Positions 32,282 through 37,063 of a stretch of DNA of 64,000 bases are shown piece after piece (within the stretch, counting starts at the first letter, position 1; each line of letters opens with the position of its first letter). Both the position numbers and the translations under genes were made by a program. Source of the DNA: Bacillus sp. (in: firmicutes) (GTDB taxonomy: Bacteria; Bacillota; Bacilli; Bacillales; Salisediminibacteriaceae); the NCBI GenBank assembly GCA_021208645.1, contig JAJOJL010000050.1, forward strand, positions 1 to 64,000. The letters are read 5' to 3'. Under the pieces are notes generated by a model, which saw only the letters and a program-made list of their open reading frames with translations, was not told the origin of the DNA and did no database searches.

Positions 32282-32324
32282 AAAACCCCCTTTCACCTGT
32301 AAAAAGGGGTGAAAGAGGGGTTAC
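32282..32324 (-). terminator. Terminator at the 3' end of yidC2
   Basis: Stem aaccccctttcacc / ggtgaaagaggggtt. Confidence 0.75.
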
Positions 32325-32325
32325 T

Positions 32326-33143
32326 TTATTTTTCCACAGACGGAGCAAGAACTGGCTGGGCCTGCTTGTAGACCGCCTTCGATAAAAGGGTCTGCATGAT
32401 GAGGAACATGCCACCGATAGTCCAATAGAGCGGTAATGCCGCTGCCATGTTAAAGGAGATGAAGCCCATGAACACAGGCATCATATAGCCCATTACTTTC
32501 ATGATCCCTTCCTGGCCAGGTTGCACGGTCATACCAATTTGTGAAACTTTAAATTGTACGAAATAGACGAGCGTTGCCAAAATAGGCAGGATGACATCTG
32601 GTTCCCCTAAGTTGAACCAGAGAAACGAATGCTCGGCAATTTCTGGCGTCCGCATAATCGCCCAGTAAAAGCCCATTAGAATCGGCAGCTGAATCATCAT
32701 GGCAGGCATCCCATGGATGAAATGGGATTGAAATTGTGCTTTTGGTATAAGCCCATCATTTCCTTCTGCATTTTTTGTTGAGATTCCTGATCCTTTTTAT
32801 CCTTAAACCTTTCCTGGATTTCTTTCATTTCCGGCTGAATTACGGCCATTTTTTCCCGCATGGTCATTTGCGATTTATACTGCTTCATCATGAGCGGCAG
32901 CAACGCAAAGCGAATAAGTAAGGTCATGACGATAAGGGATATACCGTAATCCCCAAATATCCCTGCAAAAAATTTGATGGAAAAGGAAAATGGGTAAACG
33001 ACGTAATGATTGAAAAATCCAGCTGTGTTTGCGTCAATTGGTTCGTTCGTGGCCCCACATCCAGTTAATGTTACTACTACTAGTCCGATTAAAAGGAAAA
33101 TACCATACCTTTTAAAGAAGTTGAATACAGATTTGTTTTCCAT
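32326..33143 (-). pseudogene. YidC/Oxa1 family membrane insertase (lipoprotein type), one frameshift near 32705
   Basis: LTGCGATNEPID lipobox; 32697-33143 (...SSMGCLP) joins 32326-32709 (MMIQLPILMGFYWAIMRTPEIAEHSFLWFNLGEPD) with a 1-nt change. Confidence 0.9.
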
Positions 33144-33454
33144 TGTTGTCCTCCTCGATATCTATCTGTAATGATTGCCTTCGAGGAGAAAAAATAATCT
33201 GCATCGTCTTCAGGAGCTTCCTTTCGCTTCACAATTCGCGTGAGGAAATTTTGTTTTTCCACCAGTTCTTCCGTCACTTCTGTTTCTGTGGTCGAAACGG
33301 CAGTGACCGCCTGGAGGCTGTTGTTTACACGGTGTCGTCGGCTGACCGTGTAATCCTTGGCCATCCCATCCACAAGCTGTGCGGCGATAATCGTTAACAC
33401 GATACTCATGGAAAAAAGTATTGGCACTAAATCATTGGAAAACTCGAATATCAT
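33089..33454 (-). CDS. Candidate MifM-like regulatory arrest peptide upstream of yidC2
   Basis: ATG at 33454 after AAAGGAGGTG SD; one N-terminal TM; TRIVKRKEAPEDDADYFF acidic cluster just before an SD-sequestering hairpin. Confidence 0.65.
   Translation of the reverse strand: MIFEFSNDLVPILFSMSIVLTIIAAQLVDGMAKDYTVSRRHRVNNSLQAVTAVSTTETEVTEELVEKQNFLTRIVKRKEAPEDDADYFFSSKAIITDRYRGGQQWKTNLYSTSLKGMVFSF
33151..33188 (-). promoter_or_regulatory. Hairpin sequestering the yidC2 Shine-Dalgarno
   Basis: Minus strand CTCCTCGA-aggcaatcattacagataga ta-TCGAGGAG, 8-bp perfect stem; 3' arm is the SD 7 nt from the yidC2 ATG. Confidence 0.8.
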
Positions 33455-33500
33455 CTGTACTCTCACCTCCTTTAATAGGTTTAGGTTTGTCCTAGGGTCT

Positions 33501-33640
33501 GATCCAAAATCTCCGTTTCTAAGATTTTGGATCAAAGCCTATGCAATGAGCGTAGCGTCCGCAATTTTTTTAAGAGCTGACAGGAGAGGGTTTCTCCTGT
33601 CAACGAGGCGCGAGGGAAGCCATTGCCATAGTACTTCAAA
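33501..33640 (+). repeat. Dispersed double-hairpin element, copy A
   Basis: GATCCAAAATCT/AGATTTTGGATC; TGACAGGAGA-gggt-TCTCCTGTCA; linkers gcaatgagcgtag.. and gaagccattgc. Confidence 0.75.
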
Positions 33641-33872
33641 CAAGCTCTTCTAAATAAGTATATATATCATCGTTTATTAGATGGGAATTGTCAAAGAATA
33701 TTTTATTCCAGTTACTATGCATCCTAGCCAATAGTGTGAACAACATATACTTGATATGCAAAAATCTCTTTTTTCACAATCTTCACCATAGTTTTGTGCC
33801 CTTATGGGTAGTTTGTGGATTGCCTACTCTGAGTCTTTCTGACAAGATGAAAACTCATGTATTTTTCTTAAA

Positions 33873-34104
33873 GGCTCTGTTAGTGGATAATGTTGATTTT
33901 GGATATACGTTGATTTTGCGAAAGGAGCGAGACTCCTCGAAAATGCTTACACATTTTCTTCGTGCGTGGGCCATTTCGAGGAAGCATCTCAAAGTCCTGC
34001 GGGAAAAGCAACGGCTGAAGACCCCGCAGGGACGAGGAGGCTGAAGCGTTGCCCGCGGAAAGCGAGCTCCTGTAGCAAAAATCAACAACAAAGACTAACA
34101 GAGC
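33873..34104 (-). mobile_element. MITE-like dispersed element, copy 2 (232 bp)
   Basis: Reverse complement of 4401-4632; ends GGCTCTGTTAGT...ACTAACAGAGC. Confidence 0.8.
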
Positions 34105-34327: not shown

Positions 34328-36259
34328 ATGGGTGGATGTGTGGCTTTATTTCAACCATTAAAACTGAAAAACATCACTTTCAAAAATCGGGTCATCATGG
34401 GCTCCATGCACGTTGGCTTAGAAGGTTTAGATGAAGGAATTGAACGATTAACGGAGTTTTATCGACTACGGGCGGAGCATCAAGTTGGTTTAATTGTTAC
34501 TGGTGGTGCCGCTGTTAATAGAGAAGGAAGCGGCGGCTTGGATTTTATGTCCATTTATGAAGAGGAGGATGTTTTGCGGTGGAAACCCTTAACAAATGCC
34601 GTTCACAATGAGGGAGGAAAAATTGCCTTGCAGCTGTTTCATGCCGGCCGCTACGCCTATAAAGCATTGAATGGCGTGGACCCTGTAGCTCCATCCCCTA
34701 TTCGCTCGCCTATTAACCCTGATACGCCTGTTGCTCTAAGTGATCCTGATATTAAGAGGACAATTATTGATTTTGCAGAAGGGGCTAGGCGGGCAAAGGA
34801 AGCTGGCTTTGATGCGGTGGAGATTATGGGTTCTGAAGGCTATTTAATTAACCAATTTGTCTCCCCTGTCACGAATAAACGAACGGACCAATGGGGAGGG
34901 AGCTTTGAAAAGCGGATTGCCTTCTCTCTGGAGATTGTTAAAGCTGTCAGAAAAGCCGTTGGAAATGATTATCCGGTCCTTTTCCGCATGTCTGGCCTTG
35001 ATCTAATTGAAGGAAGCACCACCGAAGAAGAAACTCTTCGGTGGGCTCAGGAGTTGGAAAAGGTGGGGGTTGATCTATTAAATATTGGAATAGGTTGGCA
35101 TGAATCACGGGTTCCTACCATCTCAATGAAGGTTCCAAGAATGAATTTTGTTCCTGTTGCAGAAGAAATAAAAAAACATGTAGAGGTGCCTGTTGTTGCA
35201 AGCAACCGCATCAATGATCCTATAGCAGCCAACAAACTATTGGAAAAAGGGACAGTCGATATGATTTCCATGGCCCGGCCTTTTCTGGCAGATCCAGCCA
35301 TTTTGACGAAAGCAATGGAGGAACGATTTGAGGAAATTAATACATGCATCGCCTGTAATCAAGCTTGCCTGGATCATGTTTTTGAAGGATTGCCTGCATC
35401 TTGCCTTGTTAATCCTGAAGCAGGACGAGAAATGGAGTTACCACTGATTAAAGTCTCCCAGCCAAAAAAGTTGGTAGTCATTGGAGCCGGACCGGCGGGC
35501 TTGGAAACGGCCCGGGTTGCTGCAGAACGGGGGCATGACGTTACCCTTGTGGACGATAAAGAAGAAATCGGAGGTCAGCTCAATTACTCAAAACGCATTC
35601 CTGGCAAACAAGAGTTTTATGAAACATTACGATACTATCAAGTACAGTTAAAGCGCTTAGGCGTAAAAATAATTTTAAATACGAGAATTTCAGAGACCTC
35701 CCCCCTAGTAGAAGAAGCAGATGAAATCGTTATGGCAACGGGCATTAAACCACGGATACCAGCGATTTCAGGTGTGGAAAACAACTCTGTTGTTTCTTAT
35801 CAAGCTATTTTTGATGGTGAAGTAGCATATGGATCAACTGCAGTCATTATCGGTGGCGGTGGAATTGCCTGTGACTTGGCCTTGTTTTTACAGGAAAAAG
35901 GTGTAAAAGACATTACCTTGTTACAACGGGGAAAATCATTTGCAAGGGGAATTGGAAAAACCACACGCTGGGCTACATTAATGGAACTCCGACAAAAAGG
36001 GATTAACATGATTGGTGGGATAGAGTCTTATGAAACAATACATGAAAATACTGTCCATTTTACTCTCAAAGGAGAAACCCGTTCCGTTAAAGCTGAATCT
36101 ATTATTCTAGCAGCAGGGCAGCTAGTTAATAATGATCTGGCAGAAAGGCTGACTGCAATTGGGAAAAAGGTTCACGTCATTGGCGGAGCAAAGCATGCCC
36201 TTGGGTTAGATGCGAAAAAAGCAATTTATGATGGGGCTTTAATTGGAAGAGAAATATAA
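34328..36259 (+). CDS. NADH:flavin oxidoreductase / 2,4-dienoyl-CoA reductase family protein
   Basis: OYE barrel (FKNRVIMGSMHVGLEG) plus CIACNQACLDHVFEG Fe-S cysteines and FAD domain VVIGAGPAGLETARVAAERGH. Confidence 0.93.
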   Translation: MGGCVALFQPLKLKNITFKNRVIMGSMHVGLEGLDEGIERLTEFYRLRAEHQVGLIVTGGAAVNREGSGGLDFMSIYEEEDVLRWKPLTNAVHNEGGKIALQLFHAGRYAYKALNGVDPVAPSPIRSPINPDTPVALSDPDIKRTIIDFAEGARRAKEAGFDAVEIMGSEGYLINQFVSPVTNKRTDQWGGSFEKRIAFSLEIVKAVRKAVGNDYPVLFRMSGLDLIEGSTTEEETLRWAQELEKVGVDLLNIGIGWHESRVPTISMKVPRMNFVPVAEEIKKHVEVPVVASNRINDPIAANKLLEKGTVDMISMARPFLADPAILTKAMEERFEEINTCIACNQACLDHVFEGLPASCLVNPEAGREMELPLIKVSQPKKLVVIGAGPAGLETARVAAERGHDVTLVDDKEEIGGQLNYSKRIPGKQEFYETLRYYQVQLKRLGVKIILNTRISETSPLVEEADEIVMATGIKPRIPAISGVENNSVVSYQAIFDGEVAYGSTAVIIGGGGIACDLALFLQEKGVKDITLLQRGKSFARGIGKTTRWATLMELRQKGINMIGGIESYETIHENTVHFTLKGETRSVKAESIILAAGQLVNNDLAERLTAIGKKVHVIGGAKHALGLDAKKAIYDGALIGREI

Positions 36260-36281
36260 AAATGATCATGGAGGGGAAAAC

Positions 36282-37063
36282 ATGTCAGAAACAGTGCTAT
36301 ATTCAGTTGTAGGTGGGGTTGCCACGATTACCATGAACCGGCCGCAAGTGAAAAATGCCATTAACGAGAAAATGCACGAGGAACTATATCATGCATTTAC
36401 TGCTGCCAAGGAAGATGAGTCTGTTAAAGTAATTGTCTTAACTGGGAAAGATGGTGCATTTTCTAGTGGAGCAGATATAAAAAGTATCCCTATAGACAAA
36501 ATGGCAGAGTTTGACCACGGGGATTATTTAGAAAGGACATATAACCGGTTATTGCTATTAATTGACGAATTAGAAAAGCCAACGGTTGCATACATTAACG
36601 GAATTGCCGTAGGAGCAGGATTGAGTATTGCCCTCGCCTGTGATTTCCGCATCGCCAATTCTGACAGTAAATTTGCCTTAAGCTTTTTTGGAATTGGGCT
36701 TATTCCTGATGCTGGTGCGTCCTATTTTTTACCGAGATTAGTAGGTTTGGGGAAGGCGATGGAGCTTTCCTTAGGAGGATCGCTATCTGCCGAGGAAGCG
36801 TATCGGATTGGGCTCATTAATCAAATGGGACAGCCAGAATTATTCATTGAACAGTTGAAGGAAGTCCCTACACCGGCATATGGCTTAGCAAAAAAGATAT
36901 GAAAGCAGGGTTCAACCACACGTTATCAGAAGTATTAGCCATGGAGACGGAAGGTCAACGACAAGCTGGGAAATCCGATTCCCACCTAAAAGCTGTGATG
37001 AATTTTATGAAGAAAAGCGAAGGCGCCCGCCTATCGGCGAAAGGAAAATGCTCTGACCGATAA
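36282..37063 (+). pseudogene. Enoyl-CoA hydratase/isomerase, frameshift at ~36895; 3' end runs into a dispersed repeat
   Basis: ATITMNRPQVKNAINEKM, GAFSSGADIKS; continuing in another frame as MKAGFNHTLSEVLAMETEGQRQAGKSDSHLKAVMNFMKKSEGARLSAKGKCSDR. Confidence 0.85.

Follow-up and report, generated by a model that had tools for sequence, protein, structure and literature searches.

A 121-codon open reading frame lies directly upstream of a yidC gene, on the same strand, in the analysed window, which is a stretch of 64,000 nt from a genome that groups among Evansella species. The upstream frame, by its sequence a homologue of MifM, is here called mifM and the downstream gene yidC2; the two overlap by 55 nt. 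The features of the locus are as follows.

33666-33694, minus: promoter-like site TTGACA-17-GATGAT; relatives have a similar sequence before mifM
33452-33475, minus: Shine-Dalgarno (SD) and start codon of mifM (TTAAAGGAGG..GAGTACAGAT), 5' arm of a long-range duplex, from complementarity, covariation and folding
33089-33454, minus: mifM homologue, from homology and its conserved place upstream of yidC
33371-33427, minus: transmembrane (TM) segment, residues 10-28, from hydropathy and charge
33197-33247, minus: putative arrest region FLTRIVKRKEAPEDDAD, spanning residues 70-86 and aligning to W73-D89 of B. subtilis MifM
33197-33211, minus: acidic cluster EDDAD, residues 82-86, from sequence
33151-33188, minus: local hairpin masking the yidC2 SD, from a permutation test and RNA folding
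33150-33155, minus: yidC2 SD, AGGAGG, from sequence
32326-33143, minus: yidC2 (60KD_IMP/YidC family), ATG at 33143, frame broken by a one-base deletion, from a family match and comparison with relatives
33112-33132, minus: anti-RBS arm, yidC2 codons 4-11 (ATCTGTATTCAACTTCTTTAA), within the mifM/yidC2 overlap, from complementarity, covariation, synonymous change and folding
32285-32310, minus: terminator-like hairpin after yidC2, from sequence

The mifM frame is preceded by the SD AAAGGAGGTGA, starts with ATG at 33454 and ends with TAA at 33091-33089, and in the local hairpin CTCCTCGA (33188-33181) pairs with TCGAGGAG (33158-33151) in a perfect 8-bp stem. On rechecking, these elements, the TM segment, EDDAD, the yidC2 SD and the overlap were all as described in an earlier sequence-only reading, which had overlooked the long-range complementarity (33475-33453 / 33132-33112) and the damage to yidC2. 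One base is missing from yidC2 near 32698 (32690-32710) as compared with Evansella relatives. With a genome completeness of 77%, an error of assembly is a plausible cause, the alternative being a broken gene or pseudogene. The genome encodes a second, complete yidC with no mifM-like ORF upstream, as expected for a pair of primary and inducible insertases; its neighbours, named by eye from translations, are presumably YidD, Jag and MnmE, that is, the spoIIIJ neighbourhood.

In this genome the promoter-like site is separated from the mifM RBS by a palindromic repeat about 157 nt long (33484-33640, minus), where the relatives examined have only about 40 nt; the genome contains about 40 copies of the repeat with 73-87% identity, many of them partial. 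Farther upstream, beyond the promoter-like site, the GC-rich stretch 33900-34090 resembles dispersed repeats when inspected by eye. Elsewhere in the window, an enoyl-CoA-hydratase-like ORF (36243-37063, plus) is split into two overlapping frames and may represent another assembly indel.

Relation of the upstream ORF to MifM

MifM is a textbook arrest peptide, and to our knowledge what is known of it comes almost entirely from B. subtilis. It is present in hundreds of Firmicutes genomes (PMC10987492), and the list of Fujiwara et al. comprises 572 sequences. Searches of Pfam, NCBIfam and Rfam returned no family matching the mifM ORF or its RNA, and the PDB, which includes a MifM chain, gave no match with the single sequence or with profile A1. 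The homology emerged from the broader profiles A2 and A4, where the profile of the family matched a B. subtilis-type MifM over its whole length (hhalign probability 92% (91.9%), E 7e-7, 88 columns) and picked up loci of the B. subtilis type at E about 1e-4 per genome. Members of the B. subtilis type carry RITTWIRKVFRMNSPVNDDEDA, and the loci L150 (WIARYIRRKESSDDDSES) and L139 (WIIKYIRKKESADDEGDH) bridge the two groups. Judged from these profile matches, the ORF upstream of yidC2 is a MifM homologue and a new member of a known family. The arrangement is no chance find: homologous ORFs were found in 13 of 33 genera of the relatives sample (E<=1) and in 40/135 genera of the order sample (E<=0.001), their start codons being assigned by rule. 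All examined loci except a few were directly upstream of a yidC gene, and the distance from the motif to the yidC start was 77-91 nt in 64/64 loci measured.

The consensus common to relatives is W/F-[IL]-T-R-x-x-K-R-K-E-[AGS]-P-[ED]-D-D, in which the family retains W-I/L, where B. subtilis has W73-I74, and the acidic cluster, where it has DEED, with F in place of W in the window ORF and its genus. The B. subtilis critical residues R69-I70 and M80-N81 are not conserved and KRK stands at the constriction, so the contacts of the nascent chain with the tunnel probably differ from those of B. subtilis MifM. The earlier description of the ORF as very different from MifM was overstated, as WIRKVFRMNSPVNDEEDA and FLTRIVKRKEAPEDDADY align without gaps.

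The features used to select MifM sequences in published work were also compared. Residues 10-28 form the best 19-residue hydropathy window of the ORF (2.26; a hydropathy scale was used in place of the predictors of PMC10987492), with an acidic N side and a basic C side, and an N-out/C-in orientation is expected; more than 30 residues follow this N-terminal segment, with EDDAD among them. The published charge threshold, a local value below -0.3 for a window of 5 residues within residues 70-100 (PMC10987492), compares with -0.8 at residues 82-86. The place of this small uORF immediately before yidC is kept in relatives. A stem over the yidC2 SD is present and co-adapted, and the spacing suggests that an arrested ribosome would open it. 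In a permutation test this local hairpin suited the locus it came from better than it suited others (z -15). Arms taken from random other loci also paired moderately (28/40 above 0.5) because the consensus is shared, and fold probability alone is therefore weak evidence.

Taken together, homology, the conserved arrest region, the SD hairpin, gene order, spacing and the published criteria strongly support a MifM-like translation-arrest control of yidC2, as the sequence-only reading had supposed; the conservation of acidic cluster and SD hairpin upstream of yidC in relatives was looked for and found.

Gene overlap and long-range pairing of the mifM RBS

The mifM frame was open beyond the yidC start in 98/114 loci, most often by 31-67 nt, and the remaining two frames held stops in 75/98 and 94/98 of the overlapping loci. 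The idea that the overlap reflects a frame error (an extra T in the T6 run) was therefore rejected, the overlap of mifM with yidC2 being conserved.

Within the overlap, the anti-RBS arm is complementary to the mifM RBS about 320 nt away. The consensus of the mifM SD, spacer and start (GGAGGTGAATACAGATG) is the reverse complement of the consensus of yidC codons 4-9 (CATCTGTATTCAC); the RBS arm of the window is weaker, with GAGAGTACAG instead of GAATACAG. In the RNAfold minimum free energy structure of the window, the local stem and the long-range duplex were both present (z -5.9), with predicted long-range pairs of 33475-33467 with 33120-33112 and 33462-33453 with 33132-33123.

Along the transcript, the mifM RBS had its best partner at the yidC start in 91/98 overlapping vs 1/16 non-overlapping loci (Fisher p about 1e-12, uncorrected for descent). 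As the first profiles extended into the overlap, which could bias them towards arm-bearing loci, the search was repeated in the order sample with a profile ending at the acidic cluster. Non-overlapping loci were then commoner (51, with 26 overlapping), and the association of overlap with pairing held: the yidC start was the best RBS partner in 21/26 overlapping vs 2/51 non-overlapping loci, beside which L186, with a partner one tile off, also counts. On the yidC tree, a quick tree with many weak branches, the overlap state changes about four times (3-4), and few events therefore stand behind the association of overlap with pairing. L027/L160, L138 and L230 show full or partial pairing but do not overlap, and L107/L191, L222, L233 and L200 overlap but do not pair. 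In the non-overlapping genus g53 (L102, L104-L106, L173, L175-L178, L190, L198, L206), the mifM RBS pairs inside mifM, about 109 nt downstream, which is perhaps a second way to close the sensor's own start.

When the arms were anchored independently, on the SD and on the in-frame Phe codon, both set blind to pairing, 11.0/12 positions paired as compared to 8.9 with the arms of other loci. The covariation score was 0.422 (shuffled 0.172+-0.013, slid at most 0.15), 88% of cells were paired vs 30-53% in slid versions, and two-sided changes occurred in 8/12 pairs. In the tree-aware test, 22 co-changes fell on the same branch vs a null of 6.8+-2.2 (maximum 15 in 5000). The anti-RBS arm is also constrained at the codon level, with zero synonymous difference at yidC2 codons 4-7 when Evansella relatives are compared; of 260 windows, averaging 0.56, this one is the lowest. 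Synonymous sites in the arm codons are frozen in Paenibacillus as well, and in the Salipaludibacillus/Alteribacter group the lowest synonymous window is codons 2-5. Covariation across these sequences shows that the long-range pairing is under selection, and we propose that the duplex would gate the initiation of mifM a second time, at the level of the RNA. Our literature searches found no description of the overlap or of mifM-RBS/yidC2 pairing, and this candidate second RNA lock is the part of the system that we did not find described earlier.

Proposed mechanism and comparison with known systems

The best explanation, to which we give a probability of about 0.7, is a MifM-type monitoring substrate combined with a second RNA element on the mifM RBS. 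Following the model of MifM, the TM segment of the product would engage YidC, and on failure of insertion the nascent chain would arrest translation with one of about codons 86-89 in the P site, the range covered by the four stall sites of B. subtilis. The leading edge of such a ribosome would be at or beyond the 5' arm of the local stem, leaving the SD and start codon of yidC2 free about 50 nt downstream, and YidC2 would be made.

The long-range duplex may add a further layer. The mifM RBS would be accessible on nascent mRNA and would close once yidC2 codons 4-11 are transcribed, such that, as its likeliest role, it would confine free initiation on mifM to the time before the yidC2 start is transcribed, or while ribosomes sweep the anti-RBS, and would otherwise close both initiation sites. 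Sweeping could come from readthrough of the overlap by mifM ribosomes when there is no stall, or from yidC2 translation upon a stall, which would explain the joint conservation of overlap and pairing. YidC2 translation would keep the duplex open and load more ribosomes on mifM, and without a stall ribosomes would pass through the overlap and the mRNA would close behind them. The net result would be a sharper switch with fewer ribosomes trapped. The duplex may hinder yidC2 initiation as well, as base 12 of yidC2 is the first of the anti-RBS arm. The full two-lock arrangement, in which the coding region of the target folds back about 320 nt on the RBS of its sensor, sensing takes place only on pioneer mRNAs or on those under active translation and the overlap lets mifM ribosomes reset the lock, is in our view evenly poised between right and wrong.

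Alternatively, B. subtilis-style MifM control may be the whole story and the duplex may serve mRNA stability, by protection of the 5' end or as an RNase III site, and not translation. Covariation reveals pairing and not purpose, and the arm is near the expected mRNA 5' end (the promoter-like site is about 40-50 nt upstream in relatives). However, for stability any 5' sequence would serve, whereas the arm spans exactly the SD, spacer and start codon and has its partner at the downstream start site, which makes this reading unlikely, though the strongest of the alternatives. It is far less probable that the arms are a DNA-level inverted repeat serving as operator for a transcription factor. Co-varying halves could track a changing DNA-binding protein, but an arm falls at the SD/start codon in nearly all overlapping loci, the arms follow the promoter-like site and are placed in coding sequence, and A.C mismatches were depleted more than G.U (observed G.U 39 and A.C 10; shuffled 51 and 31). 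Slightly less credible still is a small membrane protein of the ordinary kind that YidC2 requires as a companion and that causes no arrest; arrest in this ORF is deduced from its sequence, but the conserved part is precisely the arrest-like stretch with the acidic cluster and SD hairpin, and the profile match to MifM is of full length. That the complementarity is a by-product of one ancestral coincidence, with the SD dictating GTGA and the signal peptide of YidC2 dictating SVF, would suit the SD-proximal positions, which hardly vary, but it is barely tenable in view of the same-branch co-changes and of the different sequences that pair in different genera (GGTGAATCGATGATG/CATCATCGATTCACC in L028, GTGAATCCCTTGTT/AACAAGGGATTCAC in L118-L130, GTGAACAGAGATG/CATCTCTGTTCAC in L149), with the residues encoded by the anti-RBS arm changing in step (SVF, NVF, KGF, SAF, HHRF).

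Most relatives with the mifM-yidC overlap (Bacillales, Paenibacillales) carry a conserved duplex that, under the preferred reading of a monitoring substrate with a second RNA element, would set the frequency of sensor translation. This raises the testable question of what keeps an arrest peptide from wasting or trapping ribosomes on each mRNA, and offers a case of N-terminal protein sequence (SVF, NVF, KGF) shifting in step with RNA pairing.

The B. subtilis MifM-yidC2 system (YqzJ/YqjG; PMC6037786, PMC4423224) shares with the window locus a uORF of yidC2, one TM segment, an SD hairpin and the order W-I, basic stretch, acidic cluster. The spacing from TM segment to arrest region, about 58 residues, is like that of B. 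subtilis MifM, and the family median is 54 (PMC10987492). The two differ in that KRKEAPEDD here takes the place of RMNSPVNDEED, and in that mifM of the B. subtilis type ends 25-33 nt upstream of the yidC2 start and works without overlap and without long-range mifM-RBS/yidC2 pairing, whereas mifM of the window overlaps yidC2. The arrest sequences of CliM from Clostridia (KYxIW) and ApcA from Actinobacteria (RAPG) are unrelated. The closest mechanism, by analogy, is the Min Jou interaction of phage MS2 (PMC11339067), which is likewise a long-range (about 300 nt) pairing of a coding region with the RBS of another gene, opened by ribosome movement. There the upstream coding region hides the downstream RBS, whereas here the downstream coding region would face the RBS of the upstream arrest peptide, with the gene order reversed.
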